Positions 15,001-28,595 of a stretch of DNA of 61,425 nucleotides are shown one piece after another (position 1 is the stretch's first letter; each line of letters opens with the position of its first letter). The stretch lies in assembly GCA_020859985.1 (NCBI GenBank), contig JAJBVD010000030.1, positions 186,741 through 248,165 on the forward strand. Direction: 5' to 3'. This stretch comes from Clostridiales bacterium (lineage in GTDB: Bacteria > Bacillota > Clostridia > Lachnospirales > Lachnospiraceae). The notes under the pieces are model-generated. The model made no database searches, was not told where the DNA came from, and worked only from the letters and a program-made list of their open reading frames with translations. Both the position numbers and the translations under genes were made by a program.

Positions 15001-18000
15001 GTACGGTCGCCTGATTTTCAATGCTGGCGGACGTCCCGCTGGTATTCAGCCTCTTAGCATCATTATTGACTTTTACCGTCAGTGTCACGGTGCCGCGGGC
15101 AAAAGCCGCCACGGTCCCAAGAGACCACGTGATCATACGGGTGCCGCTGTCATATTTCACAGCTCCCGTCCCCGCCTCCACCGTAGCTTTATCCACAATC
15201 GTGCCATCCGGCAGCGTCACGCTGACGAGGTCTGCGCCCGCATCCAGCACGTCCGTGATCGTCATCACCGCGTCCGTGTTGTTATAATTAAAGTAAGAAA
15301 TCGTATACGTCACCGTATCGCCGACCGCGACATACTTATTGCCGCTGGTATCTTCCGCGGTCTGCAAAATTCCCCCTGCACTCGTCACGGAGGTAACCGT
15401 CTTCTCCGGCGTTTCCGAAGCCGCGGAGGGCTGCCGGTTTGTGAAATCATACGTATACGTATTCGTCGCTTCCGTGTAACCGGCGGACGTACTGCTTTCA
15501 TAGGTAAATGATTCTTCTGTACCATCGCCATCAATGTCCGCAGAGCCGGTCACGTCGCTTTCGGATACCACATAGGTGTAAGCATATCCGGAGGCATCGT
15601 ATTTTGGAAGCTTCACATATTCGCCGGACGTACTGTCCTTATACCAGTAAATCTGATACGCACTGCTCTCCGATCCGGTTCCCCAGACGACAATATAGGT
15701 ATCGGCATCCCCTGTGCCTGCTCCACTGTTCCGGCTCGTCACATTCGTCAGCGTCGTCCCCGACGTGCCTCCGCTTGTGCGGGTCACATTCAGCGTGATT
15801 TCAGATGCGTTGTCATGCGTCTTGCCCGTGTCCGCATCCACCCAGCTCTTTGAACCGGTGATGGTCACCTCTTCCTGCGTGATGGTATTTGTAACGGCGG
15901 TATTCACATAGCTCCCGCTGCCCGTGTATGCAGAATAGACCGTTTCATACCCTGCTGCCGCTGCTTCTACCACTGTGTAGATATATGCATTGCCGCTCGT
16001 GTCATATTGGGGCAGATTCAAAATAGTCCAGCGGGAGACCGATGCGGACGAAGAGGTCCACGTCACCTCAATCGCATCTCCGTTGCTATTTTCCGTCACT
16101 TCTTCCCAATCCGCCGAAGTCGGAATCTTCTCCGGATCCGTGGTGGCATTCTGAGCGGTGGTGCGGTAAAGGGTCAGCGTAACCTCTGTAGTATTGTCAT
16201 GGGTCTTCCCGCCGTCCACCCAGGTCTTGGTGCCGGAGACAGAGATTTCCCCCTGAGAAAAGGTGTTGACTGCCACAGCCTTCTCATCGTCTATATACCC
16301 ATCCTGATTCCAGTCCGTCTTATTGGTGCTCTCAATGCTGGCGGACAATACGCCATTGCCCTCATCCGACACAGTCACCGTGATCAGGTGGCCATAGGTC
16401 GCGGTATCCAGCTTCATGCCGTTCGCGTTGCTGGCCGCTGTCTCAGACACCTTGTAGGTATAGGTACCGCCGATATGGGACTCATCCAGCTCGAGCGTTC
16501 CCAGCACCCAGGTCAGATAATAGCCGGAACCGCCGCTGATCACATGGCCGTCCGTATCTGTCAGGCCGGACGGAACCGTGACCGTAACCGTGTAAGTACC
16601 ATTTTGATTTTCCTCAATGCTGACATTGCTGTTTCCGCTCGCGGCGGTCAGCGTGGGGCTGCCGGAATCTTTCGGTGTGACCAGAAAAGTGAAGGTCTCG
16701 CCCGCGACAAAGTCACGCCCCTGCAGCACCTTGATGACCGACATCTCAGCAGTGCCGCCGGCCGTATAGCCATTGCTGAAGGTCAGGTCGTTCAGGATGG
16801 TCGTGGAGGAACCGTTGCCCGTATTAATTGTCGAGATCAGCGATTGTTCCGTCGAATCCTTATTCGTGTGATAGGTTACCGCGGTTACCGTTTTTACGCC
16901 GTTTTCACTGCTTACGGTCACCGTCACGTAGTAAATTGTGTTGTCATAGGACACACCGCTCTCGCTGCCCGTTTTTTCGCTGACGGTATAATAATACTTG
17001 CCGTTGCTGTCCGTCGGACCATAGGTGATGGTATCGCCAAAGTAGCCCGCGGCCCCATTCCCGCTCTCGTAGGTATAACTGTTCTTTTCTGTAAATGTGC
17101 TGTCGGTATACCCCTGAATCACCAGCGTAAACTGGTTTGCCTGCAGCGTACCCGCAAAGCTCTTATATGCCCGCAGCGTGATAGAAGCAGAACCGGTATC
17201 ATAGGTATTGGTAAAGTTGGCGGAGGATGCGCTCTCCGTGCTCGTGGTTCCGTTTACTGTGGTGGTCCTGGTCAGCGTAGTCGAAGTGACTGCCAGCGCC
17301 CCATCCACAACCTCCACTACAACAGTCAGGTCATAGCGGCTGCTGTCATAGACCACACCGCCCGCACTCAGGCTGGACTCCCGGATGACATAATAGTAGG
17401 TGCCGGCATGATCGTACGTTACCGTTTTAGGCGCAAACGTAATATCCACGTTTTGATAATTGCTGTTCGTGACCGTCGCAGAACCGGTAGTGACCGGATT
17501 ATCAGATCGATCCGTCACATAAAAGTCAAAAGTCAGACTCTGACCGGCCGCAAGTGTATTGCCGTTTATCAGTGTCTTTGTGCCGCTAAGCGCTGTAGTA
17601 ATGTCATATGTAAGGGGCGTTTCCTGATTGACGACCTCCACCGCGACCTCTGTATCCGCTGCCGTAAGATTGATCTGATAATAGCCGTCCGCATCCGCCG
17701 TGATCCCGGTGCCATCTGCCTTCACCGTCACGGTGTAGCCGTGACTGTTCCCGCTGATCAGCTCTTCTGTCAGATAATAGGTTCCCAGAGGCAGATCTGA
17801 AACGGTATATGTCAGGCTATTGTTGGACATTGTCAGGGTTTGGGTATTTTTGATGGTCGTTTTGTCGCTGGCATAGAGGACAAAGCGGAAGTTGTCATTG
17901 TTATTCACAGCCGTACTGCCATCCGAAGCCAGCACCGTCTTCGTCACGGTAATGCCGGCCGTATCCAGGCTGTTGGTGAGCGTGACATAGTTCTCCCCTG

Positions 18001-21000
18001 TCGCCGGAGTGATCACCGCGTCTGAGAGAGGATGTGCCGCATCCGTACCGGTATAATCCGTATAGTCATTTCCCGTGCTGCCCACACGGATGCTCTCCAG
18101 TGTATAGTCATTGAGAGCCGTCTCCGTGATGCTGTAGGAGATCCGATTGCCGTCGCTGTCATACGCCGGAAGCGTGAGCGTATTGTTCCAGTAATCGCCG
18201 CTGCCCGTACCATTCCAGGCCGCGTTCGCGCCGGAAGCGCCGGAAATCGTATAGCTCTCGCCGCTGCCGGTCAGGGTTACGGTGAAATCCTCTGCTGCCG
18301 GACGTTTGCCGGAATCAGCGGAATCGTCCCAGTATTTCGTGACGACAATGTTCTCTGTATCCGCGATCGTATTGGTAATGGTGGATGCCGCCGTCTGGCT
18401 TTCTGTCACCGTCACCGCCCCGCCGCCGGACACGGTCCAGGTATGGCCGTTCACCGTCACGCTGCCGCCTGTCACACCGGCCTCCGATACCGTATAGCCG
18501 CCTGCCGGCAGATCTACCAGCGTCACGCTGCCGCCCGCCGGCACGGAAACGGTAACACTGCCGTCAGCGGACACAGGATAGGCCGCCCCCGTACTGTCGC
18601 TGACCGCAGTCAGCGTACCATCCGCGGTGTCCAGACCGCTGACTACAAAATCAAAGGTCATGCCGCTGGTATCCACACCCTCGGCCTTTACCGTCTTAGC
18701 CAGTGTCAGACCGCCGGTCTTTACGCTGTTTTCGACCGTATCTGTACTGACGCCGGTTTCATTTCCGATCTTTACCGTCGCACTGTTATTGACCTTATTT
18801 GCTGCTGCCGCGCTCGCAAGCACTTTTACGGTAACAGTCACCGTACCGCGTTCAAAGGCCGCGGCGGTAAATGACCAGGTCACCGTGTTCGCATTTGCTG
18901 ATGAAGGCTCCGTGATCGTGGCTGTCTTCGCAGTATTTTCCGATGTTACCGGCGCTGTCGCGCTCACATAAGAGACATTTGTGTCCAATATATCGGTGAT
19001 GAGGATCGCCGCACTTTCGGCATTGTTATTATAGTAAGAAATGGTATAGGTGATCTCATCGCCCACCTCGACCGACGCGCCATTCGTGCCGGCATCACTG
19101 TCCGCAGCTACTTCCTTCTCCGGATTTTCCGGCTGATCCGGATTCAGCGGATTGACAACGATCCCGGTCTTCAGCTGATTGCCCCCGATGGTGACCGTGG
19201 CCTGATTATCTACAGTAGCCGTATCAGCCCAGTCCGTGCTCAGCCCGTCGCCCGCGCTCTTCGCCTTCCCGTTCACCTTCACAGTCAGAGTAACCGTGCC
19301 GCTTTCAAAGGCCGCCGCCGTGAACGACCAGGTGACGGTACCTCCATAGGAATACGAATCATTTCCGTTGACAGCAGTTTTTTGCCCGCTGATCGAATAA
19401 GCATTCGCAGCCGTAGTCGTCCAGCTTGCCGGATTCGTGGCGGAGACATAGGTCACGCCGTCATCCAGCACATCGGTGATGGTGACATTGGCCGTCGTAC
19501 TGCTTCCATTATAATAGCTGATCGTATAGGTGATCTCATCATCCACAGAGACCTTATCGTAAGTGACATAGGTCGTGCTGCTGTCTGTAGTCGTGTTTGT
19601 CGTACCGGTGCCGTTTCCGGTCTCGCTTTTGCCGGCCGTAGACTGCTCTGCCTTGCGGGTGTTGGTGATATGATAGCCGTCATAGCTGACCGTATAGGTA
19701 TAGCTGCCAACCGTCACCTCGCTGTCAGAATTGACGTCCAGCTGTTCCGTCACAGTGTAAGTATACGCCGCGCCGTTGCTGTCATACTTTGGCAGGCCGT
19801 TGTTTCCGTCAGATGTCGAGATGGTGTAGGTCCAGACCTCACCGTTCGCGGTGCCGGCCGCGGTGTCCTTTGCCCAGGTCACCGTATACGCATTCGCATC
19901 CAGCACCGTGCTGTTCTGTGTGACTATAAGGGTAATGTCCGAATCACTGTGAGCGATTCCGCCATCCACCCAGGTCTTGGTGCCGCTCAGAGTGAGATAT
20001 TCCTGCTCAATGGTATTTGTGATGGCAGTGTTGATCTCACTTCCACTTCCGCCAGCATAAGAGGAATAAGCAGTGTCATAGCCTGTCACTGCATTTTCCA
20101 AAGCTGTATAGATATATGCATTGCCGTTTTCGTCATACTGAGGCAGGTTCTGGATCGTCCAGACAGCGACAGACGCAGAAGAAGCGTTCCATGTCACCGT
20201 AACGGAATTTCCGTTCAGATCTGTCGTCACCTCTTCCCAGTCGCCCGAAGCTGCAATACTGCCCGGATCCGCGGCCGCGCTCTGATTGACCGTGCGGTAA
20301 AGAGTCAACTGCACATCCGAGGAATTTGACGCTGCCGTGTGGTTTTTACCGCCGTCCACCCAGGTCTTGGTACCGGAGACAGAGATACTGCCCTGCGAAA
20401 AAGTATTGTAAATCACAACGTCATTTACGTTGTCGCTATTTTTATCTTCGCTTCCGGAGCTCGTGACGGTCACCGTCAGCTGCCCGTTCCCCGCGTCTGC
20501 AATACTGACGTAGATCAGCTTGCCGCCGGCCGCGGTATCATATGTCACACCGTTCAGACTGCCGGCGATCTCCTGCACTTTGTAGGTATAGTTCTTGCCG
20601 ATATCCGCCTGCGTGTAAGTGATCGTGCCAAAGCTGATAGAACCGTCTGCCGCATTGACCGCTGTGACATAGTTCTCTCCTGCCGCAAGATAGCCGCCCG
20701 TGACATAAGTCTCCCCGGCCTGCGCTGTCGAGTAGCCTGCCGGCATAGGCGCACTGGAATCCAGCGCCACCAGCAGGAACGTGAACTCACCCGCATTCAG
20801 TGTTCGCCCTGTCAGATCCTTATAAGCAGTCAAAGAGGTGCTGCCGCTGGCCGCATAGCTGTTATGGAAAACGATGTCGTCAGAAAGATCGCCGCTGCAC
20901 ACTGTCCATGCCGTCTGGGCATCCGGCGTCCCGACAGGCGCATAGCTGACACTGGTCACCTTAAGAACAGTTGTGCCGTTCTTCAGCTCAGATCCGACCA

Positions 21001-24000
21001 CGACCTTCACCCAGTATGTCGCTGTATCATAGGTCATACCGGTTTCGCTGCCGGTATTTTCTGTTATCTTATAATAATACGTTCCCTCTGCGGTATAGGT
21101 AAAGGAATGGCTGAACGTGCCGCTGTCTGTATTATAAAGCGTTACGGCGGTGCCTTCTGTTGTAACGAAATTACTCTGATACTGCTGCACGCTGACAGAG
21201 AACTCATTCGCCGTGATCGTCCGTCCGCTCAGCGTTTTACTCAGGATCAGACTATAGCTGATGGACTCCGGATCGTATGTGTTTACAAACGCTGCGCTGC
21301 CAGCCGGTACATTATCAGACGATCCAGCCGCGACATACTTCGAATACAGCTGTGAGGAGGCGGTCAGATCGCCATTCCCGTCTCTTTCCACGGTAACAAC
21401 CAGAGTATAGATCTGACTGTCATTGCTGACACCGGCAGTCTGGTCATCTTTCTCATAGATGCTGTACACATAGGTGCCAACCTCTGTGTAAATAAACGCG
21501 CCGTCCTCATACGTCCAGACCACATCCACTGCAGAAGCTGCGTTGATCGAGGTTGTCGCCGTTCCGGTCGCCACCTGAGTGTTTCCGTTATCCTTGATAT
21601 AGAAGGTAAAGGTCTCCTCATGTCCGCTCGCAACAGCAGTGCTGGTAAAAGTCTTGGTTGCAGCCGGGAACACGCCTGCCTGATCCTGAATGCTGATCTT
21701 CTGCTCCTGATTGGTCACACTGACCTCCACGGTACTATCCGTTTCGGTCAGGTCGATCACATAATAACCGTCACTATTGGCAGTAACCGTTGTACCGCCC
21801 ACAGTAACCGTCACCGTGTAGGCATGCTTATCGCTGTCCGTCAGCTCCTCTTTCAGATAGTAGGTGCCCAGAGGCAGATCCGAAAAGGCAGCGTTCATCT
21901 GTCCCGTCAGTGTCAGGGTTTGCGCACTCACCTGCGAATAGCCCGATCCATTGTACGTATAAAGACGGAAAGTAAAATCGTCATCATTCACGGTAGAGTC
22001 CGTGATCTCCGTACCGCTTGAGTCCCTCAGAGTTTTTGTCACTTCAATGTCGGCGGTGTTCAGAATATTGGTGAGCGTGATATAGCTTTCTCCATCTGCA
22101 GGAGTGATTTCTGCATTGGAAAGCGCAGCTGCCCCCGATGTGCCGGCATATTTCGTGCCATCGTCTGCCGTGCTGCTGCCCAGCTGGATCGAGTCCAGAG
22201 TATAACCGGCAACGCCTGACTCCGTGATGTCATAGGTGATCTTATTGCCGTCACTGTCATACCCCGGAACGGTGATGGTATAGCTCCAGGAGGAACCGCT
22301 TCCGCTCCAGCTGTCGCCGGTGATCGTATAGGTATTGCTGCTGACTTTGTCATCGGTCAGAGTAACCGTAAAACCCGCCTTTTCCGGGCGGAGATTATTC
22401 TTATTACTCTCATCCTGCCACTCCTTTGTGACAGTGATCGTCTTTTCATCCGCTATGGTATTGGTGAGGGTGACATTCGTCGTATCTCCGGTCGCCACAG
22501 CTGCCGTGACACTGCCGGATGTTATGGCTGCCGACGCATTATCCACTTCCGCGCTGACCGTCCAGGTATGGGTACCCGCCTCCACTGTAGTCACACCGGT
22601 ACTGACATCCGTAGCCGCGCCAGACTCCGTCACCGTGTAGGTCCCAGCCAGAAGAAGCAGCGTCACGGTCGAGCCTTCCGTGACATTGACTGTAATCTCA
22701 CCGTTTCCATCCACGGTATATTTATTCCCATCAGTGTCCTGCACACTGGTCACAGAACTTCCAAAGCCGGACACCACAAAGGTAAAGGTCGTCTCATCCG
22801 CAGCATTATCCGGATCGTTTACCTCCTTGGTCAGCTCAAGTTCACCAACATTCAATGTATTCGTGATCGTCCAGGTGATGTTGCCGTCTGAATCGGTCGT
22901 CTTTACCGGATCGGAAGTCGTATACCCGCTTACGGTCGTCGTCTCCTCAACTGTGTAATTATTCTTTGTGCCACTTGTATAAGTCTGCAAATCCTCATAG
23001 GTATAGCTCCAGCTATTGCCGCTGTTCAGAGTCGCCAAACCGCTCGTAACCGCGCTGTTGTTATTATAGAGCTGTACACCCAGAGAGTCCGGCCGCAGAC
23101 CATATCCATTGTCGTTATCATCCCACACCTTTACGACATTGACATCAATTGTCTCCGGAAGGAATTTAATGTATACGACCGTATCCTCCGTGATTGCCTG
23201 CCCAACCGCGCTCCACGGGATCGTACAGGCTTCATCTGCGTAGTACCCTAATACCTCATAGCCGTCCGGGACCGTGATCGTCGGCTCATAATCCATAGTC
23301 ACGCCCTTGATAAATACCTTGGTGCCTGCCGTATTTCCATCCTTAGCTTCACCGGAGGTGATGCCATTGTTTCCGTATTTATAAGTAATCTTCACCGTCT
23401 CGAAGCGAAGGTCCAGATGGTATTCAACCGTCTGATCCTTAAAACCATAGGAAACATCCGTCCCCCATCGAAACAGAGCAGACTTGTTGCTTCCCCAAGT
23501 GTAGCCCTTATCCTTTGCTGCATAGGATAAATACTGGTACACATAATTCCCAATATTCAATGAATAGTCAACATACTTATATGTATTAGTACTTGAGAAA
23601 TAAGTGTTCATGCCAATCAGGTGGCTCGTTTTCATATTTGACAGCGCAGCCAGAAGCTTCGACCAGTCATCATCCGTTTCAATCAGAGCTGCACCCGCCG
23701 TTGTGTAATTTTTTCCGTTCAGAAACGATTCGTCCAGCTCGATTTCACCAGCAGGAAAATATCCGTTTCCATCGATGGTTGAGCTGTCAATCCCCAGCAG
23801 CGCCAGCATTTCATCCGAATAAAGATTCCCATCCTCATCCTTTGCCGCCACATACACATATACCCGGACATTTCCCGCCGTGGCCGTCCCAGCGGTTCCC
23901 TCCTCGACCGTCACTGTCACAGACTCTGTTGTCGAGGTCGGCCATCTGCCGCCCTGCCCGCCGCTGCTTGTCTCATAAGTGTGATATACCGTAACCGTAC

Positions 24001-24652
24001 CTGCCGCGATGCCGGTTACCGTCGCAACGTTATCAGTATAAGCTACGGTAGCTATATAATTATTAGATACACTCCAGCTGTGATTGCTTCCGGTACTGCC
24101 GGTCAGGGTAATCGTATCGCCTACTTCTATTTCATACGAAGTGACTCCGCCTATTGCCGTCAGCGAAGGCTCGCCCTCTTCCAGAGATGCAGCCGCGATG
24201 CCGTTTTCCTCCGCAATCGAGGTTCGCCCATTATCAGAAGAGTCCTCTGATTCGCTCTCCGTCTCCGATGTGGACTGCGTCTCAGACTCAGACTCCGTTG
24301 CTGTCTCTTCAGTGGTCTCGGATTCCACAGCCTGCGTCTCAGTCGCGCTCGTCTCCGGCTCTGCGGTCTGCGTTTCAGAGGACACTGTCTCGCTTTGCTC
24401 AGCCTGCGTTTCTGCCGAGGAAGTCTCTGTTTCCGCGGCCTGCGCTTCCGTCTCCGCTCCTTCTGTCTCAGACTCCGTCTCTTCCTGTGAAACTATCGCC
24501 CCCACAGCGCCATTCTCCGTTTCCGAAGTAACGCTGACCTTCGTCCCACCCGAACTGTCTTCTGCGAGTGAGCTGATGCCAGCCTGCTGGAAGACCAGCG
24601 ACAGTGCCAGCACCAATGCAAGAATCCGGCTAAACCCACTCTTTCTCTTCAT
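1..24652 (-). CDS. Giant multidomain surface adhesin, 3' end outside window
   Basis: Continuous minus-strand frame from an ATG at 24652 (GGGAGAGAG ribosome site) to the left edge, at least 8,217 codons. Frame register was checked near 14452, 5050 and 4, and I met no stop in the stretches I translated. Residues 1-30 are a Sec signal (MKRKSGF, then a leucine-rich core). About 50-140 is a Glu/Thr/Ser spacer, 158-223 a Big_2-like Ig domain, 230-435 an unrecognised head and 438-496 a Listeria-Bacteroides-like repeat. From about 500 on, CnaB, FctA/Spy0128-like and DUF11 (GDEITYTISYYN) modules recur in five blocks; the paired CnaB motif TKTWVDGG lies near 20.35/19.97, 16.21/15.83, 11.39/10.99, 6.79/6.44 and 2.01/1.51 kb. 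CnaB and FctA folds normally form Lys-Asn/Asp isopeptide bonds, giving a rigid stalk. The sortase motif, expected at the C-terminus, is not in view. Ligand unknown. Confidence 0.93.
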   Translation of the reverse strand, partial: MKRKSGFSRILALVLALSLVFQQAGISSLAEDSSGGTKVSVTSETENGAVGAIVSQEETESETEGAETEAQAAETETSSAETQAEQSETVSSETQTAEPETSATETQAVESETTEETATESESETQSTSETESESEDSSDNGRTSIAEENGIAAASLEEGEPSLTAIGGVTSYEIEVGDTITLTGSTGSNHSWSVSNNYIATVAYTDNVATVTGIAAGTVTVYHTYETSSGGQGGRWPTSTTESVTVTVEEGTAGTATAGNVRVYVYVAAKDEDGNLYSDEMLALLGIDSSTIDGNGYFPAGEIELDESFLNGKNYTTAGAALIETDDDWSKLLAALSNMKTSHLIGMNTYFSSTNTYKYVDYSLNIGNYVYQYLSYAAKDKGYTWGSNKSALFRWGTDVSYGFKDQTVEYHLDLRFETVKITYKYGNNGITSGEAKDGNTAGTKVFIKGVTMDYEPTITVPDGYEVLGYYADEACTIPWSAVGQAITEDTVVYIKFLPETIDVNVVKVWDDNDNGYGLRPDSLGVQLYNNNSAVTSGLATLNSGNSWSYTYEDLQTYTSGTKNNYTVEETTTVSGYTTSDPVKTTDSDGNITWTITNTLNVGELELTKEVNDPDNAADETTFTFVVSGFGSSVTSVQDTDGNKYTVDGNGEITVNVTEGSTVTLLLLAGTYTVTESGAATDVSTGVTTVEAGTHTWTVSAEVDNASAAITSGSVTAAVATGDTTNVTLTNTIADEKTITVTKEWQDESNKNNLRPEKAGFTVTLTDDKVSSNTYTITGDSWSGSGSSWSYTITVPGYDSDGNKITYDITESGVAGYTLDSIQLGSSTADDGTKYAGTSGAAALSNAEITPADGESYITLTNILNTADIEVTKTLRDSSGTEITDSTVNDDDFTFRLYTYNGSGYSQVSAQTLTLTGQMNAAFSDLPLGTYYLKEELTDSDKHAYTVTVTVGGTTVTANSDGYYVIDLTETDSTVEVSVTNQEQKISIQDQAGVFPAATKTFTSTAVASGHEETFTFYIKDNGNTQVATGTATTSINAASAVDVVWTYEDGAFIYTEVGTYVYSIYEKDDQTAGVSNDSQIYTLVVTVERDGNGDLTASSQLYSKYVAAGSSDNVPAGSAAFVNTYDPESISYSLILSKTLSGRTITANEFSVSVQQYQSNFVTTEGTAVTLYNTDSGTFSHSFTYTAEGTYYYKITENTGSETGMTYDTATYWVKVVVGSELKNGTTVLKVTSVSYAPVGTPDAQTAWTVCSGDLSDDIVFHNSYAASGSTSLTAYKDLTGRTLNAGEFTFLLVALDSSAPMPAGYSTAQAGETYVTGGYLAAGENYVTAVNAADGSISFGTITYTQADIGKNYTYKVQEIAGSLNGVTYDTAAGGKLIYVSIADAGNGQLTVTVTSSGSEDKNSDNVNDVVIYNTFSQGSISVSGTKTWVDGGKNHTAASNSSDVQLTLYRTVNQSAAADPGSIAASGDWEEVTTDLNGNSVTVTWNASSASVAVWTIQNLPQYDENGNAYIYTALENAVTGYDTAYSSYAGGSGSEINTAITNTIEQEYLTLSGTKTWVDGGIAHSDSDITLIVTQNSTVLDANAYTVTWAKDTAAGTANGEVWTYTISTSDGNNGLPKYDSNGAAYTYTVTEQLDVNSDSEVTVGSYTYTVSYDGYHITNTRKAEQSTAGKSETGNGTGTTNTTTDSSTTYVTYDKVSVDDEITYTISYYNGSSTTANVTITDVLDDGVTYVSATNPASWTTTAANAYSISGQKTAVNGNDSYSYGGTVTWSFTAAAFESGTVTLTVKVNGKAKSAGDGLSTDWADTATVDNQATVTIGGNQLKTGIVVNPLNPDQPENPEKEVAADSDAGTNGASVEVGDEITYTISYYNNNAESAAILITDILDTNVSYVSATAPVTSENTAKTATITEPSSANANTVTWSFTAAAFERGTVTVTVKVLASAAAANKVNNSATVKIGNETGVSTDTVENSVKTGGLTLAKTVKAEGVDTSGMTFDFVVSGLDTADGTLTAVSDSTGAAYPVSADGSVTVSVPAGGSVTLVDLPAGGYTVSEAGVTGGSVTVNGHTWTVSGGGAVTVTESQTAASTITNTIADTENIVVTKYWDDSADSGKRPAAEDFTVTLTGSGESYTISGASGANAAWNGTGSGDYWNNTLTLPAYDSDGNRISYSITETALNDYTLESIRVGSTGNDYTDYTGTDAAHPLSDAVITPATGENYVTLTNSLDTAGITVTKTVLASDGSTAVNNNDNFRFVLYASDKTTIKNTQTLTMSNNSLTYTVSDLPLGTYYLTEELISGNSHGYTVTVKADGTGITADADGYYQINLTAADTEVAVEVVNQETPLTYDITTALSGTKTLINGNTLAAGQSLTFDFYVTDRSDNPVTTGSATVTNSNYQNVDITFAPKTVTYDHAGTYYYVIRESSLSAGGVVYDSSRYDLTVVVEVVDGALAVTSTTLTRTTTVNGTTSTESASSANFTNTYDTGSASITLRAYKSFAGTLQANQFTLVIQGYTDSTFTEKNSYTYESGNGAAGYFGDTITYGPTDSNGKYYYTVSEKTGSESGVSYDNTIYYVTVTVSSENGVKTVTAVTYHTNKDSTEQSLISTINTGNGSSTTILNDLTFSNGYTAGGTAEMSVIKVLQGRDFVAGETFTFLVTPKDSGSPTLTAASGNSNVSIEENQNGTYTVTVTVPSGLTDTDGHVISGGSGYYLTWVLGTLELDESHIGGTYTYKVSETAASNANGMKLDTATYGHLITVTVSDEGNGVLSASIESTNKTDWNQDGYIDDEKAVAVNTFSQGEISVSGTKTWVDGGKTHDNTTEVTLTLYRTTAQNATTDPEKIPTSADWEEVTENSNGDAIEVTWTSSSASVSRWTILNLPQYDTSGNAYIYTVVEAAAAGYETVYSAYTGSGSYVNTAVTNTITQEEVTITGSKSWVDADTGKTHDNASEITLNVTRTSGGTSGTTLTNVTSRNSGAGTGDADTYIVVWGTGSESSAYQIYWYKDSTSGEYVKLPKYDASGYAYTYVVSESDVTGSADIDGDGTEESFTYESSTSAGYTEATNTYTYDFTNRQPSAASETPEKTVTSVTSAGGILQTAEDTSGNKYVAVGDTVTYTISYFNYNNTDAVMTITDVLDAGADLVSVTLPDGTIVDKATVEAGTGAVKYDSGTRMITWSLGTVAAFARGTVTLTVKVNNDAKRLNTSGTSASIENQATVLIAGIEYDTNIVTNPLENDEPVDPVKAVESDGDADYDDNQETIETGDTLSYKITYYNHYNESATITITDVLDEGLDFVSATNGGVYDKTTRTMTWTLNSAAALSSGYVVLEVTVNKAAKNVSSAGETASVENKAEVTVALDANTSVTRTTNTVINPLKNDEPVDPEKEVAAASAAGRNGAAVQVGDEITYTISYYNNNASGAVITITDTLDANVSYVSGSATQPLTSDGDTRTATITYQSTADPQTVTWSFTAEAFEQGTVTIKVKVLANAAAADKVTNNASVKVGNEAAVDAEPAENKMETGSLTLRKLVKADSDIDTAAMSFTYLVSSEALAGLTTVTVGSDTWTVSVDTNTGGVEVGTIKVSVPANGSLTLTGLPAGTYTVYEEGTENGETTIMTTDPASVNTTYQWTVSGSGAVKNVSAAAAQTVRITNTLTGSATVVLTKVWADQSNKWSTRPASIEVTLTAVDEYGNTYADSDGNTYIYRIRSWSSTGTGDSWTYSLGSVAVYDVDGNKLDYVITETAVDGYTANYTYYNNGTRLTPAEDVNATITNTLKTGNVKVTKKVVDADGSEVSSTENNDDFHFTLWAYADAAQTSIVTYGAYTLTAGGTYTFSDIPYGTYYLTEKLAANNGHSYDTTVTINDRDVNVEEEFSVTDNLKSHTVTVTIDESNASDDIEILVTNEEEEVSVALSSLVKGTKTLKGDNAATKTFGFTVAMSVTDQNNTTSEVTVATGTATLSNGETKNITWSAVSGYEDAFTYTEVGTYTYVIYENEETGTGTGGIVYDATRYTLTVVVSKSASNGELIATVSMTKNVQNADNTRTITDVTSDGNGVTSFVADSTHATGAGVSADSFTAAFTNTYDATETSIILRATKNLSGRKLEEGEFAIQVQDADRNGNAVSGGTTVTRTNGGAGSFGYEITYTQAGDYYYRVSEVIPSAAAENGDGTYTLDGVTYDTCYYLVYVDVDDMDGVLTVKNTSVTKYVYVYDERTQTGSYQEETGTTYSYDSMVFNNTYEAAGSAKLSVIKVLQGRDFNVDDLSTANVNEADTFTFLITAVTNGAPALTDPQVEGVTFADNGDGTYTVTVTAGSAGTKSENADYPNAYILQWLLAGITVDQDDIGSWDYRVTEKDDGANGMSYDEFSYGRLITVTVEDNKDGTLEVTTSSKNDVDWDGDGNTDTSKSVILNTFTQGSTNLYGLKVWVDGGRTHTSKDEVTLTLYYTTDTTSTGSTKWTAWTSNGDGTYSIDGQGSYSIEWGTSNTNRWRILSLPEYDADGYAYTYKVEESALSGYVITYSNGSAVYDSTVYDETSRFTITNTIEPEEIRIYGTKTWVEADTGKVHDNADEITLIVKRGINGQADTQLTDVTEQSNGSGTKADGTYIVVWDTGGDSYEIYWYYDSDSRTYVGLPKYDADGYEYTYTAAEDTMTGETADGKSFTYETETKSFAGSGYFRYDFTNSQPDDTWSGPEKEVESVVDTEDQEQTETDADGSRYVAVGDTVTYTISWYNYTNETADITITDVLDAGVSFSKAYNDGKYDAATHTVTWTLSGAAPFTSGTVTLEVIVNESAKTVDSGETSADIDNQATVMVAGNEYTSETVTNPLEDDEEKEPVKAVEINDPNGDFADDGKEAEVGDTLYYQIAYYNHYNKTATITITDELDDGVEFFSASDGNGTEITAASPTAATVRYNSTAHTVTWTLSAAALTSGTVTAAVTVTEAAKTVTAADETASVENQAGVKISLSSSVYTSQTTNEVENPLKPDEPVNPVKTVISEAGSNGDVVKVGDEITYSITYYNNNPGSAGMTITDTLDENVSFVSATNPVTSGKTEKTATITETSVSGANAVTWTFTAGAFESGTVTITVKVLASAAADGEVTNNASVKVGNDGVYDAVPVTSELETGALKLTKTVKADDSVNTAGMTFTYLVSSEVLAALRTVSDGTGSYQVSVDTDGNGVAYGTVEIRVPADGSVTLTDLPAGSYTVTESGAATANGVTTASTRYDGKTYQWTVNGSGSTVTVSEDKAAEAEITNTLTGEADIVLTKSWADQENKYGLRPANNGTDFTVTLTATGKDADGNEKEYSYTTSGSVWAAGSSLAVWTLEMSGVAAYDGQGNKLTYTITEDLTDSESAYTMSGGEGVTLVSGKNGTSTFTCTPADDVNITIINTLKTASLLTTKVLKDSDGDEITDPDENDDDFTFRIYAREDDGSYTEAAARTLTLTGVMSYTFSDLPLGTWYLAEDVRGTNGENEHAYTTTVKVEGRAITANADGYYEITLDTAGTVVSVEVTNQEQEIILQDVAGAFPVTTKTFTSTKIDSGKESSFTFYVMSESGIVATGTADNVEVNASVPTDIVWTYTDGAFTYTEAGTYVYNIYEGNTSEAGISTDDTVYTLVVTVSKDADGDLQVATKLYTAYDENDPTKNVEDADGIAAYNNTYDPGRISYTMIVRKTLSGRTISANEFSVSLQEYAGDFTTTKGSGITVYNSESGTFSHTFTYESEGIYYYRAQENPGTETGMTYDQTTYWLKVEVDSDNGALKVASVTYTADDPTSAAAAWTEYSGGLSDITAFLNMYTAAGSADLTAYKVLEGRELKAEEFTFLLVALDNTAPMPAGYSTAADGDSYVTDDYVVAGENYVVSTNAANGEIDFGTVNYTQADIGKTYTYRVKEIVGSANGVTYSTTDYGKLIYVSIKDAGNGRLEAEVSTSGTTDFDGDGETDVVITNTFDQGEMVIYGTKVWVDGDAQHDNSTEVTLTLQYYDADQRDWLDYSGQYSVTWGSLNSNNWRILDLPVYDLNGNPYTWRVVETAVSGYTTTYDTTDADASDAEAVPGTNSSANRYTITNTITQTYVTLSGSKTWDDGGLEHTVSKEISLKVTRSSANTELKELAEGTDYTLTWNDKANTYTITGRSGSGLPKYDEKGSLYIYQVVEAADADSQSGDTITLEIGGENYTYKISTDSDTANYTYDFTNTRAADEKQDPTKTVEIVNDSPAAAGANGGGTDDGTAVTVGQKLTYTITYYNYKNTDADVVIVDRLDDGVDFLSATTLDAAGNEIEVDADTAAAGTATVVYSERSHTVIWTLPDVAKFTGGSVTVTVQVNEDAKSTAAQETTAQVENDAEVKIGVDNAVSTNVVANPIKEEEPDNSKSESGYGEGVTDGVTGTITYGEVQVGDQIIYTIDYYNHTNELTTITITDEMDDGVSFLSATDENGAAVTRTEAMAGTEDVAYDLDAHTVIWTVTDVEPFSGGSVTLTAVVNDGARVPDAGETTAQVENQAAVTISGTEYTTNAVVNPIKADSPETPVKAVTEDSKAGTAGSAVQIGDEITYSISYYNNNPGAAVVTITDELDADVEYVGATNPASLGSSAGNAFTYDAGTHTVSWSFTAAAFEKGTVTVTVKVLASAAVEGLVANAAGVKIGDASEVTTASVTNELETGDLTLTKTVNADDAIDTSGMTFTFLISGINGELGGLSAVTDGTNTYNVENGVAAVTVPAGGGVTLKDLPAGTYTVAESGAATDQTTGVTTATTIYAGKTWQWTVTGSGSEATVTSGTASALNAAAAAAVTITNTLTGEATAVLTKNWEDLEDKYGLRPANNGTDFTVTLTASGKDADGNETIYSSTTQGLIWTAASKTVWTLNLGGVTVYDGQGNKLTYTVTEDLNGRESAYTMSGGTGLTLTTGSYTYTPADNVNATLTNTLNTGTVTVTKKVVDGAGTEVSSTENDDDFRFALWAYADDTKESTISYGTGTTTAGGTVTFENVPYGTYYLTETLVGSHDHSYDTTVTINGTDAAVTEKFDDATNLKSHTVTVTIDETNAANGITIAVTNEEEEIAVDLSSLIHGTKTMTSSNAGAVLDFQFTVYQGTALAAIGTAENVAANAAAATGITWTVLDADAFTYTEVGTYTYVISEVVTATGGVVYDSTRYTLTITVAKDSRTGELAATASMTKNAETANGERETTAMKSDGGKDTVEAASTEAGFTPADTFTAAFANEYDPGETSIILRAIKELDGRTLSEGEFSVDVTEYSDGTYTKTEDRDGDSLVTITRSNGANGNMGFEIVYGKEGTYYYTVSEAVPEKDKRAGGVTYDETVYYVKVTVEDVKGVLTVTSAVYSAAKDAKEEDWKSLFYDMQVEIAAGTFITVTEDVYLPFTNTYKASGSTELSVIKVLQGRSFAAGDSFTFTITPLDSGAPALDDPGQSGVRFTANSDGTYTVTVTVSETDAARSKKSENQNYDDTWILSWTLADLTADESMVGSWVYRVTEETGTASGMSYDMATYGHLITVTAADNADGTLNVTASSTNDIDWDGDGTTDTTKSVIVNIFDQGSQTIYGTKVWVDGNASHNNEAEVTLTLYYTTDDTITDKTVWTAWKENNDGTDTYSVDGTGAYAVEWGTLNTNNWHIENLPVYDAQGNKYTWKVEETSGNGPAANGITSYTVTYTADPSGSANAAAVSPGNANAAAVSPGSANTTTAAEPVPANNSASNRYIITNTITQEYVTLKGSTTWVDGGLPHTTSKETTLRVTRSSTGTELTTLKEAEDYTLTWDDEKSTYVVTGTGSGLPKYDDEGYLYTYQVEEVPDDGVDTITLEIDGASYTYEIATESYPAEYTYNFINTRAADEPKAPEKTVEVVDKGVSGGAASGTGTTNAGATGTAGTDEGVAVAAGQKLTYTISYYNYKNTAVTVEIVDELDDGVDFLSATTVDAAGKEITVDKKTAIAGTGTVSYNEASHTVTWTLANVAMFSSGSVTLTVQVNETAKVTGTGETAAQVENDAAVKIGVDNAVTTNLVVNPIAPDEPDNVKSISGYGLGVADEKNGITTYDEAQVGDEITYTIDYYNNTSEAAQVIVTDELGDEVTYLSSTENGVYNAREHLVTWVIGNVAPFTRGSVTLTVQVNSSALTPAGGKTEAAVENQATVEVGDTGDVNNTNIVVNPIESDDPTNPDTPTEPDTPTEPDTPTDPDTPTDPDTPTDPDTPTEPDTPTEPDTPTTPDTPTDPDTPTDPDTPTDP
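2..202 (-). repeat. 18-bp tandem repeat coding the Pro/Asp/Thr stalk
   Basis: Eleven in-frame 18-bp units encode the hexapeptide PDTPT followed by E, D or T. They form the start of a proline-rich wall-spanning stalk of the adhesin, the usual position just before a sortase signal. Copies differ only at a few positions, so length variation by slippage is likely. The array may continue past the window edge. Confidence 0.93.
1615..1690 (-). repeat. 33-bp tandem repeat in the last adhesin block
   Basis: Two near-identical units of about 33 bp encode the linker AAAVSPGNAN/AAAVSPGSAN between two CnaB modules. The equivalent linker in the preceding block (near 6540) is short and lacks the duplication, so this is a local expansion in the fifth block only. 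Confidence 0.7.
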
Positions 24653-24653
24653 A

Positions 24654-24980
24654 CTAATCTCTCTCCCTTTCTCCCTTCCCTTTTAATCCCTGCCGTTCCA
24701 GCATCCTCTCCCGTATTTCCAGAGAGTTGCAGCACGCCCCGGAAATCCGGCGGACATTCTCCAGATACTGATCCGCCGCAGCCTGCGCGCTCTCGAATAC
24801 CTGATTCAGTCGAAGCGCCGACTCCGCGATCGAGCCTGTGTCCATAACCACGATCTCCCGGTTCGCCAGTTCCTCCTGTGCGGCCTGCAGTCTGGTCTTT
24901 AACTCCTGTATTTCCTTATCCCGCTCCGCAAGGATTTCCATAAGCTCCGCGCGGCTGAGTTTTCTCATTTCTTTTCTCAT
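24654..24980 (-). CDS. Small coiled-coil protein, operon partner of the adhesin
   Basis: 108 residues from the ATG at 24980, which has GGAGG 8 nt upstream; the in-frame GTG at 24989 lies inside that ribosome site and is unlikely to be used. The sequence is a charged helix (residues about 5-45, heptad-like, SRAELMEILAERDKEIQEL) followed by a second helical part containing TGSIAESALRLNQVF and AAADQYLENV. No signal peptide or membrane segment, so cytoplasmic. Proteins of this type are often auto-labelled 'DNA repair protein', without support I can see. The stop is 1 bp before the adhesin ATG, so the two are translationally coupled. A role in adhesin production or placement is inferred only from this linkage. 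Confidence 0.85.
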   Translation of the reverse strand: MRKEMRKLSRAELMEILAERDKEIQELKTRLQAAQEELANREIVVMDTGSIAESALRLNQVFESAQAAADQYLENVRRISGACCNSLEIRERMLERQGLKGKGERERD

Positions 24981-25006
24981 CAGATCCACCTCCGAGTTTG
25001 CCTTTT

Positions 25007-25069
25007 ATTATATAAGATTTCCCCTCCCTCGGATGTAACCATTCGTGCGTTCCCAACCTACCATTCGTG
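25007..25069 (-). promoter_or_regulatory. Twin LytTR box and promoter of the adhesin operon
   Basis: Two direct copies of ACCATTCGTG (plus strand 25038-25047 and 25060-25069, 22 bp apart, two helical turns) precede a TATAAT -10 box at 25012-25007. No good -35 is present; the proximal repeat starts 25 bp before the -10, where an activator of the LytTR class would replace it. Predicted start near 25000, leaving a leader of about 20 nt before the coiled-coil gene. The boxes resemble LytTR half-sites of the ComE/BlpR type. Binding by the adjacent regulator is inferred. Confidence 0.78.
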
Positions 25070-25115
25070 AAATAGAAATAAAAGAACCGCCGTCACTATC
25101 CTAGTCACAAAATGC

Positions 25116-26498
25116 TTATGCCGGATAAAGATCCAGCCGGATATGTGTCGTAAAGCTTCTGGCCTGTTCATCATAGCAAAAGCTGGCGTTCCCGCCGTAT
25201 TTTTTTGCCGTTCGTTCCATGCTGTACAGCCCGTAGCCGCCGCCGCTCCGATCGCTCACATACGCTGCCGCAGGAAGAAAGCTCCCGTCCAGATGGTATC
25301 TGCCGGAGGGATGTATCTTCTCGCACGGATTTGCAGCCTGTATCAGCAGGGAGCCGTTGATAATGCCTATCTCCACTGTGATCCAGCGATTTTCCTCGAT
25401 CTGCGCACAGGCGCGGATGGCATTTTCCATTAAATTTCCCAACAGGATGGTCAGATCGACCGGGGATACTTTGACATCACCGCAGTCCGCCCGCACCCTG
25501 CACTGAATATCCCGGTCTGCCGCCATCCCCACATAGTACTGCAGCAGGCCGTTGACCGTAGCGTTTTTACAGTAGCGGACCGTATCTCTATGACCGATCT
25601 GCACAGTAAGCTCGGAGAGATAGGCTTTCATAGATTCCTCATCTCCCCCGGCAAGCAGATCCGACAGGTAGTTCAGGGAATGACGCATATCATGGCGCAG
25701 TATCCTGGTCTGTTCCATTTCCCGGACAATATTTTCATACTGTATCTTCTGGATCTCCAGCGCTTTGCGCTCTTCACTTTCCCGTTTTCGAAGCACCGAC
25801 TCCCGGAAAAATTTCCAGTAAAAGATGCCAAGCACTACTCCGGCCATCACCATGGGCGGGATGATCCACCACCAGAACGTCTCAACCATTTTGGGCGGTC
25901 CCGAGGTATAGACCGCCATCATGGCGAAATACAGAAATGTGATCAGAAGCACCAACCAGAATTCTCTGCGGATACTTTCTGTCTCCATCTCTATCAGATA
26001 TTCCCAGACCGCCCGCCGCATGAGAAGTGCGAAAAGTGGAAGAAATATCGCAGCAGTAATCGCGTAAAGCGCCAGATCCAACGGCGTGTAGACCTCTGTA
26101 AACACACCATCAGTAAGTGCCAGCTCAATAAAGCCGATCAGCAGATACTGCATAGCCGCGTAAAACAGTGCCAGCACAAGCACGACCATTTTTTTGATCG
26201 TCTCCACTCGCAGTGTTTTAACATACACAATGATAAAGATCACAATAACCGCCGACATATATATATTGGCAAAAAGAGCCCAATAAGGCGTAAAGCTGAT
26301 ACGCAGCATTCCTATATAAATCGGAAACAGAGCAGAAGAAAAAAACGCCAGCGCGGTACAGCCGATTAAGACCCGCCTGCGGGGATAACAAAACGCCCCT
26401 TCTGCAAATGGAAGCAGACAAAGGAATATTCCTCCCCCGAACTGGATTAAGAAGCCGGCAAAATGCCGCAGATAAAATCCCAAATTCATATGTTCCAT
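25116..26498 (-). CDS. GHKL-family sensor histidine kinase
   Basis: 460 residues. The N-terminal ~230 residues hold six or seven hydrophobic membrane segments, followed by a coiled linker. The phosphoacceptor motif is RILRHDMRH, with His269 the likely site; the ATPase part has the N-box LGNLMENAIRAC (about 353-364) and the glycine loop GGGYGL (about 430). This is the AgrC/ComD-like layout, in which the membrane domain senses a peptide or other extracellular signal. Begins 1 bp after the regulator stop, so the pair is co-translated and should phosphorylate the upstream-encoded LytTR protein. No peptide pheromone gene is visible beside it. Signal unknown. Confidence 0.92.
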   Translation of the reverse strand: MEHMNLGFYLRHFAGFLIQFGGGIFLCLLPFAEGAFCYPRRRVLIGCTALAFFSSALFPIYIGMLRISFTPYWALFANIYMSAVIVIFIIVYVKTLRVETIKKMVVLVLALFYAAMQYLLIGFIELALTDGVFTEVYTPLDLALYAITAAIFLPLFALLMRRAVWEYLIEMETESIRREFWLVLLITFLYFAMMAVYTSGPPKMVETFWWWIIPPMVMAGVVLGIFYWKFFRESVLRKRESEERKALEIQKIQYENIVREMEQTRILRHDMRHSLNYLSDLLAGGDEESMKAYLSELTVQIGHRDTVRYCKNATVNGLLQYYVGMAADRDIQCRVRADCGDVKVSPVDLTILLGNLMENAIRACAQIEENRWITVEIGIINGSLLIQAANPCEKIHPSGRYHLDGSFLPAAAYVSDRSGGGYGLYSMERTAKKYGGNASFCYDEQARSFTTHIRLDLYPA

Positions 26499-26499
26499 C

Positions 26500-27210
26500 T
26501 CATACCCCCCCGCTTAAACGGTCAAACAGATATCTGTCGTAGGCGGCGCGGATAGCGGCACGTTCTCTGCGGGCAAAATCCAGCCGAATTCCATTCCGCA
26601 GCATGCACGCATCCATCTCCATCTGTTCAATCTGTTCCATATTTACAATAAAGCTTCTGTTTAATTTCAGGAAGTTCTTTCCCAGCTTTGACTCCAGCTC
26701 TTCCATAGGCATCCATACCTTTATCAGCCTGCCGTCTGTCAGATGAACCTCTTTGGCATGGCCTATGCTCTGAATATAGCTGATCTCATCGAGAAATACG
26801 GTATGACAGCCGCTGCCGAAAGGAAGCTGGATGAGCGGGCGCTTTTTCTTCCGCAGCTCGCACAGGCGGCAAAAAGCTTCCGTAACGCCCTCACTTGTAA
26901 CGGGCTTCACCAGATAATGAAGCGCATGCAGGGAAAACGCCTCCACCGCATGATCCGTACTGGTCGTGACAAATACAATCCCCGTAGACGGAGAACTCGT
27001 CCGCAGGCTTTCAGCGATCTCCACACCATTTTCGCCCGGCATATAAATATCCAGAAATACGATATCAAAGGGCGGCTCTTTTGCAGCCGCTGCCAGCAGG
27101 TCTTTCCCGCTCAAAAAGCACTCCGGGCGGCGTGTCGGGTCATAATCGCGCAAAGCACGAAGCAGCTGTTCCTGCTCTCTTACGCTGTCATCGCAAACTG
27201 CAATCCTCAT
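26500..27210 (-). CDS. LytTR-family response regulator
   Basis: 236 residues. Receiver domain 1-120 with acidic pocket Asp7/Asp8, phospho-acceptor Asp54 in FLDIYMPGENG, and Lys102 in LVKP. LytTR DNA-binding domain about 130-230 (ISYIQSIGHAKEVHL, then KLNRSFIVNMEQI). LytTR proteins bind pairs of ~9-bp direct repeats spaced by 12-13 bp; exactly such pairs occur before the adhesin operon and upstream of this gene. GGAGGG ribosome site. First gene of the regulator-kinase operon. It most likely activates adhesin expression. Confidence 0.93.
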   Translation of the reverse strand: MRIAVCDDSVREQEQLLRALRDYDPTRRPECFLSGKDLLAAAAKEPPFDIVFLDIYMPGENGVEIAESLRTSSPSTGIVFVTTSTDHAVEAFSLHALHYLVKPVTSEGVTEAFCRLCELRKKKRPLIQLPFGSGCHTVFLDEISYIQSIGHAKEVHLTDGRLIKVWMPMEELESKLGKNFLKLNRSFIVNMEQIEQMEMDACMLRNGIRLDFARRERAAIRAAYDRYLFDRLSGGV

Positions 27211-27324
27211 ACAAATCTCTCCCTCCAGTGATCGTTAACAGAACGCACCATGGCACATTCCTGTACATATTTCTTTCCGGGCAAGTGCGCAATCTCGCGT
27301 AAAGCCTGCACAGCTTCCTGTAGA

Positions 27325-27413
27325 GAAAAAACAGCAGGCCTCTGTGGCCTGCTGTTCCGTATCATACGTATTATTACTTATTACTGAACGAGCCGTAAAA
27401 ATGCGCAGAAACC
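27325..27413 (-). ncRNA. Candidate LytTR-controlled small RNA or attenuated leader (~89 nt)
   Basis: Defined by a predicted start about 7 nt past the TATAAT at 27425-27420 and by the terminator at 27356-27326. The interval has no ribosome site with a plausible start. If read-through occurs, the same RNA is a 5' leader for the regulator-kinase operon. No similarity to a known RNA family was recognised. Existence of the transcript is inferred from the promoter and terminator alone. Confidence 0.5.
27326..27356 (-). terminator. Strong intrinsic terminator between kdgK and the regulator gene
   Basis: An 11-bp perfect stem (27330-27340 with 27346-27356) and a 5-nt loop, followed on the minus strand by six T residues. 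It lies downstream of the second LytTR-type promoter and 115 bp before the regulator start. It may end the kdgK transcript, end a small RNA, or attenuate the regulator operon. Confidence 0.88.
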
Positions 27414-27419
27414 AAGGTT

Positions 27420-27480
27420 ATTATATCATGGTTTCCTCCTGTCCGCGCGTCCATTCGTGCGTTCAGACTGACCGTTCGTG
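27420..27480 (-). promoter_or_regulatory. Second twin LytTR box with extended -10 promoter
   Basis: The 10-mers TCCATTCGTG (27450-27459) and ACCGTTCGTG (27471-27480) lie 21 bp apart, upstream of an extended -10, TG then A then TATAAT (27425-27420). The proximal box sits 24-25 bp before the -10, as at the adhesin promoter, and the surrounding bases CGTTC after box 1 and AAATA after box 2 are also shared. No -35 match. This matched geometry argues that one regulator drives both promoters. Confidence 0.75.
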
Positions 27481-27497
27481 AAATAATGATACCCGAG

Positions 27498-28595
27498 TTA
27501 CCTCTGCACTCTCGCGCCTGCACCGGACATGATGCCCTCCACCTCTTTCAGGCTTGCCATGGTCGTATCGCCCGGAGTCGTCATCGCGAGTGCGCCGTGT
27601 GCCGCGCCGTAGTTGACAGCTGCCTCCGCGCCCTTGCCCATCATCAGGCCATACACCAGGCCGGATGCAAACGAGTCGCCGCCGCCGACACGGTCCATGA
27701 TCTCCAGACCGTTGTAATCCGCCGCCTTGTAGATCTCGCCGTCCGCCCAGCAGAGAGCACTCCAGTCATTGACAGTCGCAGTCTTTACCTTGCGCAGAGT
27801 GGTAGCCACTACCTTAAAGTTTGGATAAGTCTTAGCCGCCTCGTTGATCATCTTACGATAGCCGTCAATGTTCAGCTCCTTTAAATTCGCGTCATTGCCC
27901 TCGATCTCAAAGCCTAAGCAGGCAGTGAAATCCTCCTCGTTTCCGATCATGACATCCACGTATTTCGCGATCTCTTTGTTCACTTCCTGCGCCTTCGCCT
28001 GTCCGCCGATCGCGCTCCACATGGAGGGACGATAGTTCAGGTCATAGGAAATGACCGTACCGTATTTCTTCGCGGTCTTGATCGCAGCAATGACCGTCTC
28101 GCAGGACTGCTCGGAAAGCGCCGCATAGATGCCGCCGGTGTGAAGCCAGCGTGCGCCGAGTTCCCCGAAAATGTAGTCAAAGTCGAAATCCTCCGGCGTC
28201 GCCTTGGAGATCGCCGTATTTGCACGGTCGGAGCAGCCCACCGCACCGCGGATACCAAAGCCGCGCTCGGTGAAATTGATGCCGTTGCGGCAGACGCGCC
28301 CGATGCCGTCTGTCTTCATCCATTTGATGAGAGATGTGTCCACGCCGCCCTGCAAAATAAAGTCTTCCATCAGCTTGCCGACCTCATTGTCAGCGAATGC
28401 CGTGATCACGCCAGTCCGCAGGCCAAAGCAGCGGCGCAGACCGCGAACGACATTGTACTCGCCGCCGCCTTCCCATGCGCGGAAGGAGCGCGCTGTGCGG
28501 ATCCTGCCCTCTCCCGGATCCAGACGAAGCATCACTTCGCCCAGAGATAACGCGTCATATTTACATTCACTTGCCGGTCTTAAATTTAATTCCAT
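27498..28595 (-). CDS. kdgK: 2-dehydro-3-deoxygluconokinase (PfkB family)
   Basis: 365 residues. Phosphorylates 2-keto-3-deoxygluconate with ATP to KDPG, the last step before aldolase cleavage in hexuronate breakdown. PfkB features: N-terminal GEVMLRLDPGEGRI and GGGEYNVV for sugar binding, and C-terminal DRVGGGDSFASG with catalytic Asp near 307. Slightly longer than the usual 310-350 residues. Start ATG has AAAGGA upstream. Follows uxaC and the uxuB remnant in the same direction, so substrate assignment is supported by context; another PfkB sugar acid kinase is a weaker alternative. Confidence 0.88.
   Translation of the reverse strand: MELNLRPASECKYDALSLGEVMLRLDPGEGRIRTARSFRAWEGGGEYNVVRGLRRCFGLRTGVITAFADNEVGKLMEDFILQGGVDTSLIKWMKTDGIGRVCRNGINFTERGFGIRGAVGCSDRANTAISKATPEDFDFDYIFGELGARWLHTGGIYAALSEQSCETVIAAIKTAKKYGTVISYDLNYRPSMWSAIGGQAKAQEVNKEIAKYVDVMIGNEEDFTACLGFEIEGNDANLKELNIDGYRKMINEAAKTYPNFKVVATTLRKVKTATVNDWSALCWADGEIYKAADYNGLEIMDRVGGGDSFASGLVYGLMMGKGAEAAVNYGAAHGALAMTTPGDTTMASLKEVEGIMSGAGARVQR

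Follow-up and report, generated by a model that had tools for sequence, protein, structure and literature searches.

In the LytTR Regulatory Systems, the repeats lie mostly 12 bp apart, with a minority of 11 or 13 bp, and about 10 bp upstream of the -35 element (PMC6193735). VirR boxes are placed immediately upstream of the -35 element (PMC2838878), and BlpR and BlpS of S. gallolyticus have a 30-bp motif in common (PMC8545106). Here, we analysed a 61,425-nt stretch of DNA from a Clostridiales bacterium of the Lachnospiraceae (assembly GCA_020859985.1, contig JAJBVD010000030.1, positions 186,741-248,165), referred to as the window. It encodes a response regulator with a receiver (REC) and a LytTR domain, a histidine kinase and, downstream of these, a coiled-coil-like protein and a giant adhesin. 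Two pairs of 9-bp direct repeats, or twin boxes, lie upstream of the adhesin operon (promoter A) and of the regulator (promoter B). We propose, with a probability of roughly 0.8, that the locus encodes an autoregulated two-component system of the AgrA/ComE type that drives the production of surface fibres. Judged from the sequence, this is very probably a genuine switch: its type is known, its targets are newly described. No paper on a LytTR regulon that controls pili or adhesins in Lachnospiraceae was among the matches listed in a literature search, whose coverage left out most subscription journals.

Twin-box promoters of the window and its genome

On the minus strand, pair A reads CACGAATGG-N13-CACGAATGG (25069-25039) and pair B reads CACGAACGG-N12-CACGAATGG (27480-27451). 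On the forward strand, ACCATTCGTG is present as exact copies at 25038-25047 and 25060-25069 and as one-mismatch copies at 27450-27459 and 27471-27480. An earlier, sequence-only reading had placed four boxes at these positions, with a repeat period of 21-22 bp, about 25 bp ahead of TATAAT and without a -35 element. All of this was recovered: the period is 22 at A and 21 at B, the gaps are as listed in Table 1, and the best -35 matches at a spacing of 16-18 bp reach only 2/6 at promoter A and 1/6 at promoter B. The same reading had tied the regulator to the adhesin, which agrees with the presence of pairs of the same layout at both. Taken singly, boxes with up to two mismatches are no more frequent in the window than expected (50 versus 56.6), and the signal is the pair. 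Neither promoter was listed by a consensus promoter and terminator scan, nor was the terminator downstream of promoter B.

A strict pair, defined as two copies of CACGAAYGG separated by 11-14 bp, occurs twice in the 3.8-Mb genome, both times in the window, and is absent from the reversed control. This genome-wide search had been proposed by the sequence-only reading, and strict pairs proved not to be numerous; its statement that such pairs occur at these two places only holds for the strict pair and fails at one mismatch. A third site, with one mismatch (C62:127459-127489), is followed 25 nt downstream by TAAAAT and about 70 nt downstream by a gene for a receiver-only paralogue, which is 56% identical to the receiver of the regulator, is probably a third target and could serve as a phosphate sink. 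With up to three mismatches, seven matches were obtained at N12 (four in the reversed control) and four at N13 (one in the reversed control), and judged by these controls most loose matches are at chance level. Nine loose matches lie beyond A and B, and four of them were inspected. The candidates C31:19060 and C53:11631 were rejected as they lie inside coding regions, and C36:125888 as it has no fitting -10 element. None of the three other giant surface-protein ORFs (open reading frames) of the genome, represented by L150 (G000:C31) and L147 (G000:C52:150001 onward), has a twin box in the 420 nt upstream. As far as inspected, the targets of the circuit in this genome are a single adhesin operon, the genes of the circuit itself and a truncated paralogue. 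The two giant ORFs on C31 have a signal-peptide-like start in common with the adhesin of the window.

The features of the locus are listed in Table 1. The Response_reg (57.7 bits) and LytTR (45.3 bits) matches of the regulator are both above the Pfam cut-off, and the adjoining gene of the same operon carries a GHKL ATPase domain (HATPase_c_5, 52.9 bits). First genes comparable to the coiled-coil-like ORF stand behind twin boxes in G015 (L057 9840-10193) and G021 (L062 8749-9390). The giant adhesin ORF has at least 8217 amino acids and extends past the window edge; two scanned pieces of it hold 15 FctA, 10 Cna_B and 11 DUF11 stretches. An anchor-like C-terminus lies past the edge in L146, beyond a stretch read as N, and is not joined to this ORF. 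With regard to Agr quorum sensing, no AgrB was found in the genome, in a search whose control responded in one of 14 genomes and exceeded the cut-off in none. Rfam at gathering threshold gave no match in the twin-box and regulator region. Elsewhere in the window, a GA-cis RNA (RF02987) was found at 45781-45863 on the plus strand, with 36.6 bits versus a gathering score of 34.7.

Table 1. Coordinates of the twin-box promoters and associated genes (window positions unless a contig is given)
Feature	Position	Strand	Description	Basis
Promoter A, distal box	25061..25069	-	CACGAATGG	motif match
Promoter A, proximal box	25039..25047	-	CACGAATGG	motif match
Promoter A, -10	25007..25012	-	TATAAT, 26 nt past proximal box, no TG ahead (not extended)
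Promoter B, distal box	27472..27480	-	CACGAACGG	motif match
Promoter B, proximal box	27451..27459	-	CACGAATGG	motif match
Promoter B, -10	27420..27425	-	TATAAT, 25 nt past proximal box, TGA ahead (extended -10)
Intrinsic terminator	27322..27356	-	perfect 11-bp stem 27356-27330, T-rich tail TTTTCTCT	hairpin script
Response regulator	26500..27210	-	REC + LytTR, 236 aa	Pfam
Membrane histidine kinase	25116..26498	-	GHKL ATPase (HATPase_c_5), 460 aa	Pfam
Coiled-coil-like ORF	24654..24989	-	111 aa, first gene behind promoter A	no Pfam match
Giant adhesin ORF	2..24652	-	FctA + Cna_B + DUF11 + DUF5979	Pfam
PfkB-family kinase gene	27498..28595	-	upstream of regulator, ends 17 nt before box B
Receiver-only paralogue	G000:C62, L148 9021-9389	-	122 aa, behind twin box + TAAAAT

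Promoter rule, targets and regulators in relatives

Among 47 genomes of the genus, 11 contain the strict pair, at 25 sites in total; among 299 genomes of the family, 5 contain it, at 11 sites, with the window's own genome counted in. Neither scan gave a match in its reversed control, and the number of strict sites reaches seven in one relative (G013). All strict sites of both scans and part of the one-mismatch sites were fetched, and identical sites were counted once in the tallies of -10 elements, targets and extended -10 elements. Five one-mismatch sites stand outside the -10 distance test and most two-mismatch sites outside all tallies. Also outside the tallies are eight sites fetched later, four from these five and four with two mismatches; they belong mostly to the paralogue class discussed below. 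With the -10 element scored as TAnnnT and at least 5/6 matches, it is present at 24-26 nt in 24 of 30 zero-mismatch sites (base-shuffled mean 0.71) and in 14 of 22 one-mismatch sites (base-shuffled mean 0.60), and the maximum across 500 shuffles was 4. Among 52 sites, the spacer is 12 bp in 25, 13 bp in 25 and 11 bp in two. For the 44 sites with TAnnnT at 23-27 nt, the gap is exactly 25 in 35, the TG of an extended -10 element is present in 38, and the -35 hexamer resembles shuffled sequence. The geometry of a twin box followed by a -10 element is thus a general rule of the clade. Rows of three boxes with a 21-22 bp period are found in some relatives (L062 3974-4024, L057 9731-9781 and L047 6759-6810), and the last two boxes of the row fit the -10 spacing.

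From 50 listed sites, 40 have a -10 element, and after removal of seven that reach a contig end, 33 readable promoters remained. Most of these (28/33) lead to the regulator (11) or to pilins and large surface proteins (17). Among the regulator-gene promoters, one is followed by a 177-aa ORF before the regulator and one leads to the receiver-only paralogue. The other five promoters precede a CAAX protease, a signal peptidase, a secreted protein without Pfam match, an AAA-type protein (assigned by letters) and one unclear target. A surface or pilin domain above the Pfam cut-off is present in nine of the 17 surface targets, for L057 in a gene further along the operon; the other eight were assigned by size, signal-peptide-like start or neighbours, and of these, L054, L061 and L062 were scanned without a Pfam match, L053 has a match below the cut-off and four were outside the Pfam scan. 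A pilin follows the regulator in L162 (Pfam) and in L169 (by letters). In G013 and G021, regulator and kinase adjoin and a second twin box lies ahead of a surface operon, and in G015 the order is regulator, second twin box, coiled-coil gene, large ORF, SpaA pilin and sortase. The sequence-only reading had predicted a circuit for one surface fibre, which fits the single adhesin operon of this genome but is too narrow for the relatives, where several pilin and surface operons are found.

Two further features accompany these promoters. Genes starting like MGYYLNSTQVYSLY lie shortly upstream of the twin-box adhesin promoters in L046, L051, L052 (8103-9845), L055, L058, L061 and G000:C36 (L149 13942-15594). 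The gene of L052, 17 bp upstream of the promoter, has AAA-ATPase_like and PDDEXK_9 domains (Pfam), and the others were recognised by letters. In addition, (GACA)6-18 arrays directly follow a promoter-like element, TTGAC-N16-18-(C/T)AnnnT, in L049, L052 (9999), L053, L058, L069, L167 and L168, all from relatives and none from the window. The (GACA)n search pattern is present in 12 of 47 genus genomes, with some matches being the array itself; for 21 distinct arrays, the promoter element was found in 18, and seven lie at most 340 nt downstream of a twin box. Such arrays are candidates for phase variation by slippage, which would add a second layer beneath the LytTR promoter.

Next, we consider which regulator reads the boxes. 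Among 66 regulator genes (65 and that of the window), the upstream pair is of the CACGAATGG type in 6, the TTTCGTAAAAGTCA type in 37 and a third type in 3, with none in 19 and too short a region in one; with 13 hand-added genes from site-bearing contigs, a biased addition, the counts are 15, 37, 3, 23 and 1 of 79. The same search gave 0 matches in one shuffle. In a motif-free test, 35 of 65 upstream regions contain a 14-mer repeat with a period of 20-22 and at least 11 matches, versus 2.0 expected, a few of the 35 being simple repeats. On a tree of 74 of the 79 proteins (200-280 aa), the CACGAATGG label changes three times versus 11.2 times when shuffled, and the TTTCGTAAAAGTCA label 11 times versus 24.9, showing that the box type follows the phylogeny of the regulator. 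Ten alignment columns fully separate the two box groups (11 versus 36 proteins, L064 excluded and kinship ignored), and they fall within residues 135-214, the DNA-binding part. In a PDB sequence search with the regulator, the best 60 of 107 matches fit the receiver part.

Proposed mechanism and rival explanations

We propose that the GHKL membrane kinase senses a signal and phosphorylates the REC-LytTR regulator, a dimer of which would bind both 9-bp direct repeats immediately before a promoter with a good -10 and no -35 element and bring RNA polymerase to it. Via promoter A, the regulator would drive the operon of the coiled-coil-like protein and the giant FctA-Cna_B adhesin, and via promoter B its own operon with the kinase, the latter probably damped by the leader terminator. 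The locus may behave as an on/off circuit.

A chance resemblance of the boxes, to which the lack of enrichment of single boxes in the window might point, is hardly credible in view of the pair counts, whose reversed controls were 0, and of the -10 distance test. The direction of control is not revealed by the sequence, and the regulator could repress at the twin-box sites instead of activating; as the boxes lie upstream of the -10 element and not over it, and the missing -35 element is what one would expect of a promoter in need of an activator, we regard repression as very unlikely. Somewhat less improbable is that a different LytTR protein, and not the neighbouring regulator, reads the boxes. 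A search of the genome with the regulator gave 16 matches at E 0.001 or better, and a LytTR-type paralogue with 29-32% identity to the regulator of the window lies behind CACGAATCG-N12-CACGAATRG in all eight loci fetched (L205-L212), which come from eight other species of the genus. The sequence of a box alone fails to identify its reader, because this second regulator has near-identical boxes in another layout. In the paralogue loci, a TTGCAT -35-like hexamer follows the box and none has a -10 element of at least 5/6 at 24-26 nt, and a site of this type with up to two mismatches is absent from the genome of the window. The layout, the position of the boxes at the regulator's own gene and their agreement with its phylogeny favour the neighbouring regulator, and for this reason we kept our confidence in the AgrA/ComE-type system at the level given above. 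Besides the paralogue loci, several observations weigh against that system: 10 of the 50 listed sites have no -10 element, the shuffles were simple base shuffles, four of the hand-added regulator genes lack a box, the window's own pair scores 9/14 in the motif-free test and stays under the threshold of 11, a remote regulator (L064, G045) carries the exact box, and a terminator sits between the -10 element of promoter B and the start codon of the regulator.

This terminator also means that promoter B, which the sequence-only reading had placed upstream of the regulator, does lie there but is no plain regulator promoter. It could mainly yield a short RNA of about 95 nt that ends at the terminator, a separate output like FasX or VR-RNA in other LytTR systems, with the regulator made by read-through. 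The perfect terminator, the stable fold of the 95-nt leader (z-score -4.64) and a terminator at the equivalent place in G013 are compatible with such an RNA. However, a search of the 47 genomes gave no other match to the body of the leader, and the outside matches, found in many places, concern the 3' part of the leader, mainly the stem, which resembles a stock terminator. Pairing of the leader with the starts of the coiled-coil ORF, the adhesin and the kinase is no better than shuffled (0.615, 0.905 and 1.000 of 200 base shuffles as good) and that with the regulator start is borderline (0.070). In several relatives, moreover, the regulator starts 37-49 nt past the -10 region, which leaves no room for an RNA. 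Fold, 47-genome search and duplex tests did not support the small-RNA output, and we retain it as a rather unlikely rival. We lean slightly towards a refinement of the AgrA/ComE-type reading, in which promoter B is an ordinary autoregulatory promoter and the terminator either marks where the PfkB operon ends or acts as an attenuator holding the regulator at a low level; either is likelier than a small-RNA output. In both leaders with a clear terminator, those of the window and G013, a PfkB gene lies upstream on the same strand. The hairpin of G021 is imperfect and lacks a good T tract, and no terminator was found in the other seven upstream regions scanned. On the other hand, a terminator past the regulator's own promoter would also cut regulator transcripts, and the folds of four leaders gave no common switch that could act as an anti-terminator.

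Regulon and comparison with described systems

The sequence comparisons give good support to a new regulon under a known kind of system, of which the local pattern of the window is one case within the genus. More speculatively, and with the balance tilted against it, a single LytTR regulator family may command much of the surface fibres of the genus through promoters with a twin box, an extended -10 and no -35 element, with a second promoter running into (GACA)n in several species; control by a signal and by slippage might then be stacked, and promoter B might produce a short RNA. What the analysis provides is a defined and testable DNA motif, together with a promoter rule for when pili and giant adhesins are produced by some gut Lachnospiraceae. 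Any genome of the clade can be searched with this rule, which predicts targets gene by gene, and as branches of the regulator are paired with their own box types, LytTR recognition becomes directly comparable.

With a REC domain and a GHKL kinase present and no -35 element, the locus falls outside the LytTR Regulatory Systems. It combines a REC-LytTR regulator, a GHKL kinase in the same operon and paired repeats spaced 12 or 13 bp apart, as in systems of the AgrA/ComE type. The HdrRM-type LytTR Regulatory Systems resemble the system proposed here in positive autoregulation, direct repeats mostly 12 bp apart and diverging repeat sequences; they consist of a membrane inhibitor and a LytTR regulator, whereas a kinase and a REC-LytTR regulator are found here, and their repeats lie about 10 bp before the -35 element, compared with 25-26 nt from box to -10 element and no -35 element in the present case (PMC6193735). 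The layout for LytTR activation that the sequence-only reading had expected is present in its LytTR-type geometry, but the proximal box is nearer to the promoter than in these systems. AgrC-AgrA of Staphylococcus aureus likewise has a LytTR response regulator with repeats at its own and the output promoter, and promoters that are poor at the -35/-10 spacing; the AgrA repeats are centred near -60, whereas about 38 bp lie between the end of the proximal box described here and the expected start further downstream (PMC4227749). In box placement, immediately before the -35 element, VirR comes closer to the present case than the LytTR Regulatory Systems. The VirR repeats are, however, defined with 7-8 nt between them instead of 12-13, and VirS-VirR of Clostridium perfringens controls mainly toxins, enzymes and regulatory RNAs, in contrast to the regulator, pili and adhesins found here (PMC2838878). 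As in the present case, FasBCA-FasX of group A Streptococcus ties a ComE-like regulator to pili and adhesins; Fas works via the FasX RNA on mRNAs, whereas here the boxes stand directly at the promoters of the surface proteins (PMC12675982).

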